Part shown: positions 5,347 to 7,812 of the stretch, in pieces
Numbering within the stretch: position 1 is the stretch's first letter
How the letters are laid out: every line of letters starts with the position of its first letter
Translations under genes and position numbers: made by a program
The notes under the pieces: model-generated
Seen by the model: only the letters and a program-made list of their open reading frames with translations
Databases searched by the model: none
Told to the model about the DNA's origin: nothing
Assembly: GCF_000337615.1 (NCBI RefSeq)
Contig: NZ_AOII01000004.1
Span: forward strand, 1 to 37,610
Reading direction: 5' to 3'
DNA from: Natrinema pallidum DSM 3751
Lineage (GTDB): Archaea > Halobacteriota > Halobacteria > Halobacteriales > Natrialbaceae
Length of the DNA: 37,610 nt

Positions 5347-6213
5347 TCAGGTGTCTCCGGAACCGACCATCTCACCGGGGATGTCGACATCGTCCATCAA
5401 CAAGACGCGTCGTTCCGTGTACTCGAGGCCGTTCTTGCGCTGTGTCCGCTTTTTGACTGCCAGCCTGCTCTTCGAGAGATCGAGTAACGCATCGATCGTT
5501 CGGGAAACCAATTTCTTCGCGTAGTCGTCGCTGATCCCCTTCTCCTGTCGTCGAATCCAGTGTTTCATGTCGCCAGCGGTGACGTACTCTCGAACGCTCG
5601 CACTCCCCTTCCGCCAAGGGTTGTCTCCAACCGACGGATCGGTCCGTGCCTTCCAGAGCTCTGCAGCAAGCCGTGACGGAAGCGCCGATGTCGTTGCCCG
5701 GAGCATATCCTCGTCCATCTTCGCGAGCTGCTGGAGTGGAAGCAGATCCCCATACGAGAGGGAAACGTTACCACCACGTTCGAGTGGATCATCACTCTCG
5801 GGTAATCGGAAGTAACTCTCACCATCGTCTTTGTGGATGCGCTCGAGACAGCCATCCACAACGTCGATCTCGCCTTCGTCGACGTGATCCTCCAAGAGGT
5901 GTGCGCCTTTCTCGAGTTCTCGTGCTTGGAGCTCACCGACGCGGTCTTTGTTGGCGTTGAGTTTCTTCTCGTGGGCGTCCAGTCGAGCTTCGATCGGTGT
6001 CTGTGATTGTTCTAGGTCCTCGAGCCGTGCTTCAAGATCCTTGTTTTCGGTGTGGACCTCCTCGAGTTCGGCCTCGAGGTGACCTATGCGGTTGTCCTTT
6101 TGGGTGAGTTCGTTTTCAAGGGTTGTGACACGCTCGTGAAGGCGATCGACTTCGTCGGCAAGTGTTTGGAGTGTCTGTGCGTCAGGTTCGGGACAGTCTG
6201 TGTTCGCGCTCAT
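5347..6213 (-). CDS. Coiled-coil protein with helical DNA-binding-like C-terminus
   Basis: The 288-residue product begins at ATG 6213 (MSANTDCPEPD). Residues ~15-105 are a near-continuous coiled coil with heptad-like Leu and Glu/Lys/Arg. Residues ~165-260 contain compact helices with several basic patches (ELWKARTDPS, MKHWIRRQEKG, KKLVSRTIDALL) that look like a winged-helix or replication-initiator type module. Proteins of this architecture are common on haloarchaeal plasmids and proviruses. The domain view is by eye only; I cannot name the family. It lies downstream of the 203-aa and 101-aa genes on the same strand, after a 255-base gap, and may share their transcript. Confidence 0.65.
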   Translation of the reverse strand: MSANTDCPEPDAQTLQTLADEVDRLHERVTTLENELTQKDNRIGHLEAELEEVHTENKDLEARLEDLEQSQTPIEARLDAHEKKLNANKDRVGELQARELEKGAHLLEDHVDEGEIDVVDGCLERIHKDDGESYFRLPESDDPLERGGNVSLSYGDLLPLQQLAKMDEDMLRATTSALPSRLAAELWKARTDPSVGDNPWRKGSASVREYVTAGDMKHWIRRQEKGISDDYAKKLVSRTIDALLDLSKSRLAVKKRTQRKNGLEYTERRVLLMDDVDIPGEMVGSGDT

Positions 6214-6468: not shown

Positions 6469-7080
6469 CTAGCCACTCTCGGGTTGGAGTCGACAGTCAT
6501 GGCTTGCCAACGTGGTAAGCGAATCGAACGGACACTGGCAGATATCGCAATAGTGTCTCTGCACGGTGAGGAACGTCTCACGTTCCGTGTGGCCGCCATC
6601 GGGAACGGCAGACTGTCTTTGTTGATCGCTGGGCCGTCCCTGGACGTGAAGATCGACTTCGGTAATCGGTTCACGACCAGTTTCTCTCCACTTGCTATTG
6701 CGGCGTTCGTGTTCGATCCGCCAGGCTTCGCCACCGGTATCGGGGACAACCATCACCCGTCGGCGACGGCCATTGATCGTCGTATACTCGAACACGAATT
6801 CGACGGTCGGTTCGGTGGACTGGTCACAGCCGCCGTCGGTTGCAAGACGTGGGTCGTCATCGGCATCGACGAGTAGAGTTCTGTCCTCGGTCTCGAGAGT
6901 CTGGGCTCGGGTATCGTCGTCGGCGATAATAATCTCTGAGCCGTCGGTTGCTTCGATGTCGCCCGGTTCGTAGCCGGCGACGGCGCGGGCCTCCGCTCGC
7001 AGGCGCATCTCGCGAGCGCCTTCGCGCTCGAGTTGCTCGGCACGCTTTGCGACAGCTTCGTGATCGTTGACGATCGTCAT
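6469..7080 (-). CDS. C2HC zinc-finger protein
   Basis: This 203-residue protein begins MTIVNDHEAVAKRAEQ. Its ATG (7080-7078) overlaps the stop of the preceding gene in an ATGA arrangement, so the two are translationally coupled. The N-terminal half is acidic and includes a short helix rich in Arg/Glu. The middle (VEFVFEYTTINGRRRRVMVV) is probably beta-strand. The last 30 residues hold a zinc knuckle, HYCDICQCPFDSLTTLASHDC, giving Cys-x2-Cys...His-x-Cys. The function is unknown; DNA or RNA binding is possible. The gene set resembles haloarchaeal plasmid or integrated-element cargo. Confidence 0.68.
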   Translation of the reverse strand: MTIVNDHEAVAKRAEQLEREGAREMRLRAEARAVAGYEPGDIEATDGSEIIIADDDTRAQTLETEDRTLLVDADDDPRLATDGGCDQSTEPTVEFVFEYTTINGRRRRVMVVPDTGGEAWRIEHERRNSKWRETGREPITEVDLHVQGRPSDQQRQSAVPDGGHTERETFLTVQRHYCDICQCPFDSLTTLASHDCRLQPESG

Positions 7081-7382
7081 TGGTCGCTCACCTCGACAGC
7101 GCCGACGATCGCGTCAGCCATCGTCTTGAACAGATACTGCACTTCGAAGCCACCGCGACGGTCGGTGATGTAGTCGATCCAGTCGTCGATCGTCTTCTCG
7201 ACGTCCTCGAGGTCGTAGCGGACGGTGCGCTCGCCGTTCTCGATAACGTGGACCGTCTCGTCGGTCGTCCGGTAGACGTGGTGTGCGCCCTCGTTGTCGA
7301 TGCCGACGGAGATATAGTCGGCACGTGGGTCGGTGGTCTGTGCTTCCGAAACCGTTTCGTGGGTTCGCGGTTGAACACTCAT
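7077..7382 (-). CDS. 101-residue haloarchaeal protein with structured leader
   Basis: I choose the ATG at 7382 (MSVQPRTHETVSEAQ) rather than the longer frame upstream, because the upstream bases form a folded RNA leader with a GGAG ribosome site 8-12 bases before this ATG. The protein is acidic. Its centre reads like paired beta-strands (HHVYRTTDETVHVIENGE), followed by an amphipathic helix (DVEKTIDDWIDYITDRRGG). I do not recognise a function. The gene ends by ATGA overlap with the zinc-finger gene and heads that operon. A TATA-containing palindrome at 7474-7494 would start transcription near 7458, just before the folded leader. Confidence 0.72.
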   Translation of the reverse strand: MSVQPRTHETVSEAQTTDPRADYISVGIDNEGAHHVYRTTDETVHVIENGERTVRYDLEDVEKTIDDWIDYITDRRGGFEVQYLFKTMADAIVGAVEVSDQ

Positions 7383-7455
7383 TGCTTCTCTCCAGAAGCA
7401 CAGGTCCGGTGCTCCAACACCGGGCCGAGAGTTTCTCCCGGCCACCCCGTGCTTC
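7383..7455 (-). ncRNA. Structured 5' leader: three-way junction with competing hairpin
   Basis: On the minus-strand RNA three stems form a closed junction. P1 pairs GAAGCACGGG (7455-7446) with CCUGUGCUUC (7404-7395). P2 is GGCCGGGAG-AAA-CUCUCGGCC (7443-7423). P3 is CCGGUG-UUGGAG-CACCGG (7423-7406). P1 and P2 each contain one G-U pair that would be an A-C mismatch if the plus strand were transcribed, which favours minus-strand RNA. The 3' arm of P1 can instead pair with AGAAGCA directly before the AUG (7383-7389 with 7394-7400), placing GGAG in a four-base loop. This is the layout of a translational switch. The pairing is seen directly; ligand, switching and any independent RNA role are inferred. 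Confidence 0.6.
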
Positions 7456-7473
7456 ACATTACTTAGTACATTT

Positions 7474-7494
7474 GCTAACCAGATAAAAGTTAGC
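7474..7494 (-). promoter_or_regulatory. Palindrome GCTAAC-N9-GTTAGC around a TATA-like box
   Basis: A perfect 6+6 bp inverted repeat has a 9-base spacer that reads TTTTATCTG on the minus strand, a plausible TATA box. Transcription would begin about 25 bases on, near 7458, at the foot of the structured leader. The half-site and spacing match the palindrome at 2041-2061, suggesting a shared DNA-binding regulator. Confidence 0.5.
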
Positions 7495-7566
7495 ATTTGT
7501 TCTAACATTAGCTTATTCAGTAACTATTAGGATATACGCTAAGTATTGCATGGGTAGAGGTAAGCA

Positions 7567-7575
7567 AATATTACA
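7567..7575 (+). promoter_or_regulatory. TATA-like box of the 70-residue gene
   Basis: AAATATTAC lies about 25-33 bases before ATG 7600, as expected for a leaderless haloarchaeal gene, and no ribosome site precedes that ATG. Confidence 0.45.
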
Positions 7576-7599
7576 ACCAGTACAGCCGAACGGGGTCGT

Positions 7600-7812
7600 A
7601 TGTCGAAGACCCGAGCGCTCCTCACAGAGACTGAGCGAGAGCAGATCGCCGGCGAGCACGGAGACCAGCGACGTTACCAAGCGACGTCTCGTGTCCGCCG
7701 GCGCATCGATGCGGAACTATCGAAGGATATCGAGGTCCTCGAGGAACACCACCCGGAGCTGCTCGAGGAACTTCGCGATGTCGTCTGCGAGGAGCGTGAT
7801 CACGATGAGTAA
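7600..7812 (+). CDS. Small conserved-looking haloarchaeal protein (70 aa)
   Basis: The product begins MSKTRALLTETEREQIAGEHG. It has a basic middle (RRYQATSRVRRRIDAEL) and an acidic helical end (LEEHHPELLEELRDVVCEE). Small proteins with this look occur widely on haloarchaeal plasmids and proviruses; I know no function for them. The start is fixed by a TATA-like box at 7567-7575. Its last codons overlap the start of a 28-residue ORF, suggesting a two-gene transcript. It is divergent from the 101-aa gene and shares its intergenic region. Confidence 0.72.
   Translation: MSKTRALLTETEREQIAGEHGDQRRYQATSRVRRRIDAELSKDIEVLEEHHPELLEELRDVVCEERDHDE

Follow-up and report, generated by a model that had tools for sequence, protein, structure and literature searches.

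A covarying leader RNA family of haloarchaea and their viruses, with an alternative hairpin at the start codon and a predicted antisense promoter in the first codons

The window analysed here is the whole stretch of 37,610 nt that corresponds to positions 1-37,610 of contig NZ_AOII01000004.1 of Natrinema pallidum DSM 3751 (GCF_000337615.1). The genes and RNA elements at the locus of interest are listed in Table 1. The AlphaFold model of the first protein encoded behind the leader is of low confidence (pLDDT 61.8), and its N-terminal 18 residues are disordered. A separate part of the window (12946-35758) carries a DISARM defence island with a BrxHII/DrmD-like helicase, DrmMI, DrmC, DrmB and DrmA, as well as two cytosine methyltransferases (one of them DrmMII-like) and an HNH/methyl-directed nuclease. 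Most haloarchaeal mRNAs lack a leader, and control of translation by structured leaders has been considered atypical for these organisms (PMC4983044). Our analysis confirmed that the three-way-junction leader RNA with a start-proximal alternative hairpin at 7457-7383 (minus strand) is real.

Table 1. Features of the leader locus, in window coordinates.
Feature	Position	Strand	Basis
Divergent small regulator-like gene, 70 aa, PHROG 26393; homologues annotated as winged HTH in RefSeq	7600..7812	+	ORF and homology
Sense BRE/TATA-like promoter element (TGCTAACTTTTATCTG)	7480..7495	-	Score 11.3 with the PWM built on 101 loci
Structured leader RNA (predicted start through the last base ahead of the AUG)	7383..7457	-	Fold z -3.8; covariance model 93 bits; covariation
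P1 5' arm (P1, 10 bp: 7455-7446 with 7404-7395)	7446..7455	-	Fold and alignment
P2 hairpin with A-rich loop (8 bp: 7442-7435 with 7431-7424)	7424..7442	-	Fold, alignment, significant covariation
P3 hairpin with conserved GGUG/CACC core and hexaloop closed by U-G or C-A (7 bp: 7423-7417 with 7412-7406)	7406..7423	-	Fold, alignment, significant covariation including the U-G/C-A pair
P1 3' arm; distal half doubles as P4 5' arm	7395..7404	-	Fold, alignment, energy comparison
P4 hairpin with GGAG in loop, abutting the AUG (7 bp: 7400-7394 with 7389-7383)	7383..7400	-	94% of cells paired; covariation in 4/6 pairs
Antisense BRE/TATA-like element (CCGAAACCGTTTCGTG) in codons 8-13; predicted antisense start ~7384	7346..7361	+	Score 4.4, best antisense site of the CDS; position conserved in 80/101 loci
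First gene, 101 aa, PHROG 32485-like, function not assigned	7077..7382	-	ORF and homology
Second operon gene, 203 aa, recurrent after the leader	6469..7080	-	ORF, neighbourhood comparison
Third gene, 288-aa coiled-coil protein, recurrent after the leader	5347..6213	-	ORF, neighbourhood comparison

The minimum free energy of the leader was -41.4 kcal/mol, compared with a mean of -28.9 for shuffled sequences (z -3.8, reached by 0 of 200 shuffles). In the minus-strand fold, a single A (7405) separates P3 and P1, and the AUG (7382-7380) starts directly after P4. A sequence-only reading of this DNA had described P1, P2 and P3 as helices of 10, 9 and 6 bp; the length of P1 was correct, whereas P2 has 8 and P3 has 7 bp. 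The second, 7-bp partner that it had claimed for the P1 3' arm beside the AUG, with GGAG in the loop, is P4, and the TATA box said to start the RNA at P1 was recovered as a BRE/TATA-like site (7495-7480) that puts the predicted sense start at ~7457, the 5' end of P1. Its claim that G-U pairs occur only in this orientation is partly borne out: the upper part of P1 (P1-upper) and P2 contain 68 G-U versus 29 A-C cells across relatives, whereas P4 is almost purely Watson-Crick.

A BLASTN search with positions 7370-7620 matched 43 of 199 related genomes, and many of these matches spanned only the leader and the first codons. In an alignment of 33 leaders, 90.5% of the cells were paired, as compared to 35-44% in slid controls, and two-sided changes occurred in 16 of the 25 pairs; P4 was paired in 88.4% of the cells and in 38-52% of those of the controls. 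The significance of covariation was judged against alignments simulated on the tree. Ten pairs were significant, all within P2, P3 and P4, including the U-G/C-A pair that closes the P3 loop, and four of the six pairs of P4 were among them. When the alignment was extended by the coding part, ten significant pairs in P2, P3 and P4 and one in P1-upper were obtained (E<0.05). The covariation of P1-upper thus ranges from borderline (E 0.07-0.32) to significant, with one pair at 0.017 when the longer alignment is used. P1-lower, the half that competes with P4, was paired in 86% of the cells, yet showed no significant covariation of its own. The proposed fold carries compensatory changes, and P2, P3 and P4 covary significantly against a phylogenetic null.

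A covariance model built from P1-upper, P2, P3 and P4 matched 207 of 391 Halobacteria genomes, belonging to 69 of 86 genera, at E<=0.01, and ~145 of these 391 genomes at E<=1e-4. Among 148 genomes sampled across the phylum, matches at E<=1e-4 were restricted to haloarchaea of the order of the source organism. The genome of this organism contains two matches of 93 and 49.5 bits, well above the noise at 25 bits. The second copy (L209, C40:13611-13693) precedes a different protein and is divergent to a regulator of the same family as the one at 7600-7812. In 71 further members, 94% of the P4 cells were paired in an alignment fitted to the model. Searches of Rfam 15 with the window and ten relatives retrieved no family at the gathering threshold, and a lax search gave chance matches only; searches of PMC, which covers few subscription papers, found no description of the leader family. 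The leader is a new conserved RNA family absent from Rfam 15.

Members of the family were also found on plasmids, in IMG/VR contigs and in the isolated haloviruses Humcor1, HRTV-DL1, ChaoS9 and HJTV-4. In Humcor1 and HRTV-DL1 the leader ends at the annotated start codon. In ChaoS9 (L249 4793-4892), the annotated start of ChaoS9_315 falls within the leader, and by the leader model the true start would lie in frame, 33 codons further downstream. One viral contig (L126) carries two leaders, one of them ahead of a tyrosine integrase (Phage_integrase). The isolated viruses were found via the regulator genes; searches of viral contigs with the 101-aa protein, and of INPHARED with this protein or the leader DNA, gave no match.

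In nearly all matches, the covariance model ends at the ATG of an ORF, and P4 ends 0-1 nt ahead of the ATG in 109 of 119 loci. At the other end, a BRE/TATA-like site lies ~30 nt upstream of P1, at a fixed distance across loci. P1 and the 5' arm of P4 have 3 nt or more in common in 110 of 112 loci. The states with P4 forced and with its 3' arm kept free differed by a median of 1.6 kcal/mol, and 97% of the loci were within 5; these energies refer to 37 C and to standard salt rather than molar KCl. Shine-Dalgarno (SD)-like 4-mers were present in 24% of the P4 loops and in 11% of shuffled loops. The data support a structured leader that acts in cis and has an alternative hairpin close to the start codon. 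The near-equal computed energies are compatible with a bistable switch at the start site and do not prove it. We keep the mutual exclusivity of P1 and P4 that the sequence-only reading had advanced as compatible rather than proven because P1-lower does not covary significantly; for the same reason P4 itself stands on firmer ground than a switch between P1 and P4.

The first genes after the leader mostly encode unrelated small proteins of at least five families: a small GxDxEGxHH domain, SWIM zinc fingers, C2H2-like and CxxC mini-proteins, an integrase and a weak RAMP match. Many leader loci belong to one family, that with the GxDxEGxHH domain. With first proteins that mostly bear no relation to one another, the autoregulator cannot be any one of these products. 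We therefore rejected autogenous control by the 101-aa protein, and with it the autogenous protein-binding site that had been among the functions suggested for this leader. Another of these functions, a metabolite riboswitch, does not agree with first genes that form no coherent regulated set. The third, an RNA thermometer, is without support as well.

A small divergent gene, which comes from either of two families, lies ~100 bp upstream in 105 of 119 loci. One of these families has weak winged-helix matches, and the other is annotated as winged HTH by RefSeq. TTAGC/GCTAA repeats surround the promoters (7460-7600 in the window; upstream of the leader in L244), at 0.64 per 110 bp versus 0.06 in control windows, and are also carried by Humcor1. 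These repeats are likely operators of the divergent regulator. At locus L029, an insertion places the regulator gene and the leader ~1.07 kb further apart than in near-identical relatives.

Unrelated first proteins have nucleotides, beyond residues, in common at codon 3 and codons 8-13. A wobble U was present in 80% of the loci at codon 11 and in 66% at codon 3, versus ~10% at most other codons. When a BRE/TATA matrix trained solely on the sense promoters of 101 loci was applied to the opposite strand, it peaked at coding positions 37-38 (z 10.5). Within the first 200 nt, this site ranked first on the antisense strand in 80 of 101 loci, versus 3 of 240 control ORFs; in the other 21 loci it was not the best antisense site. 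A top-scoring site at this position occurs in every first-protein family, and is retained in 14 of 24 loci with N-terminal peptides that have no more than 4 of 14 residues in common. Synonymous resampling of the codons lowered the mean score of the site from 0.89 to -7.7 (sd 0.37). The antisense site scores below the sense site (median 1.8 versus 11.4), although the mapped promoters of phage phiH1 range from -8.6 to 9.5. From its position, this promoter would start the predicted antisense RNA at the AUG. Given predicted starts at 7457 (minus strand) and ~7384 (plus strand), the antisense RNA would span the leader and head toward the gene at 7600-7812. The wobble U of codon 3 (coding position 9; GCU/ACU, 66%) is not clearly accounted for by the antisense promoter. 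Pairing between the leader and the coding sequence was rejected as a cause of codon conservation because no significant covariation was found, and a hairpin in codons 9-13 (GAAACGGTTTC) was rejected as a general feature, being confined to ETVS-type N-termini.

A similar arrangement exists in the Halobacterium phage phiH1, in which the mapped starts of the early lytic transcript T1 and of the antisense RNA T(ant) each lie exactly 38 nt past their own BRE/TATA window. T(ant) starts one base ahead of the AUG from a promoter at coding position 38, so that the antisense promoter lies within the first codons and its start at the AUG, as predicted here and mapped for T(ant). In both systems, too, the sense transcript begins with the 5' arm of the leader-closing helix, as judged here from promoter position alone and as mapped in phiH1. 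In addition, the extreme 5' end of the T1 leader pairs just ahead of the AUG region, and the early operon of phiH1 is divergent from a small HTH-like gene, imm. However, imm is not clearly homologous to the divergent regulators found here, and the phiH1 leader is 151 nt long with other internal helices, whereas the present one consists of 75 nt, with a three-way junction and P4, at hundreds of loci. The covariance model did not match the phiH1 region, which places the phiH1 leader outside this RNA family. T(ant) of phiH pairs with the T1 leader, exposing T1 to host RNases that remove the ribosome site (PMC4284463). In view of this mechanism, the 5'-end pairing of phiH1 and its adjacent immunity gene, we read the element of the window as a leader under phiH-type control.

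The fold, P4, the AUG position, the positions of the sense and antisense promoters and the divergent regulator can be read from the DNA itself. The divergent regulators, the distribution on viruses and plasmids and the antisense promoter, all of which go beyond the sequence-only reading, point to control of the phiH1 T1/T(ant) type. In our judgement, the leader is probably the sense half of such a sense/antisense module and opens, at its 5' end, the early-operon mRNA of a haloarchaeal virus, provirus or plasmid. Sense transcription would begin at the P1 5' arm, so that the RNA would fold at once into P1-P2-P3. P4, borrowing the lower P1 3' arm, would form right before the AUG and block initiation, and the exchange between P1-lower and P4 would be close to energy-neutral; this block of the AUG and this exchange are the likely mechanism at the RNA level. 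A weaker promoter on the opposite strand, in codons 8-13, would launch at the AUG an antisense RNA, complementary to the leader over its entire length, in the direction of the divergent regulator gene. We infer, beyond antisense transcription and P1/P4 switching, cleavage of the duplex and a role in lysogeny: in a repressed or lysogenic element, the antisense RNA would pair with the leader and silence the first gene, and upon induction the sense RNA would outrun the antisense RNA.

Other explanations were weighed against this module. It appears unlikely that a trans-acting factor or ligand operates the switch, with a protein or small molecule stabilising the junction with full P1 and thus freeing the AUG, P4 otherwise closing the start and antisense RNA being unnecessary. 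The conserved P3 core and junction A, the significant covariation of P4, the near-balanced energies and the enrichment of SD-like 4-mers in P4 loops (24% versus 11% in shuffled loops) would suit such a switch, but the mostly unrelated downstream genes do not suit a metabolite, P1-lower is without significant covariation, and the antisense-strand BRE/TATA element in the codons would be left unexplained. We give still less credence to a constitutive leader, in which P1-P2-P3 and P4, without switching, shield the 5' end or position the ribosome on a leadered mRNA. P4 is nearly always there, is Watson-Crick paired and, in 109 of 119 loci, ends 0-1 nt ahead of the AUG, and leadered initiation in haloarchaea is poorly understood; however, a hairpin in contact with the AUG would be expected to hinder initiation rather than help it, and the arm of at least 3 nt common to P1 (110 of 112 loci) would be needless. 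An operator or cruciform recognised at the DNA level by the regulator or replication proteins, which the inverted repeats and the TTAGC/GCTAA repeats around the promoter might suggest, is disfavoured and highly improbable, given the preference for G-U over A-C in P1-upper and P2 (68 versus 29), the extension of the element from transcription start to AUG and its variable loops.

The sense/antisense module can be compared with further systems. In phage lambda, the PRE transcript comes from an opposing promoter in the early operon and reads toward the repressor gene, and the cIII mRNA has alternative folds at an early phage start codon; the analogy is one of logic only, as these systems are bacterial, with other regulators and RNA. 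The leader of ribosomal protein S15 in Halobacteria (PMC7247131) is likewise an archaeal mRNA leader with a proposed fold containing a multistem junction, but it is located before rpsO and imitates rRNA, whereas the window has no Rfam match. As of 2021, one archaeal riboswitch had been experimentally determined, the fluoride riboswitch of T. kodakarensis (PMC8241225). The present leader resembles riboswitches in its junction and competing hairpin at the start site, and differs in having no coherent metabolic gene set and no ligand, and in the presence of an antisense promoter.

We are evenly divided on a broader reading, in which the locus represents a portable lysis/lysogeny-type cassette found class-wide, composed of a bistable leader, face-to-face promoters starting at both leader ends and a divergent regulator. 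Such a cassette would write an antisense promoter into the first codons of any gene that follows, so that unrelated proteins would share N-terminal residues; the antisense promoter would thus account for the N-terminal codons common to unrelated first genes. Taken together, these data describe a covariation-supported leader family, without an Rfam 15 entry, across most sampled haloarchaeal genera and isolated viruses. The leader model corrects gene starts, as for ChaoS9_315, and exact sense and antisense starts are predicted for ~100 loci. A single observation from 1993, the antisense control of phiH T1, may in this way be extended to a general rule, open to testing, for the mobile elements of haloarchaea.
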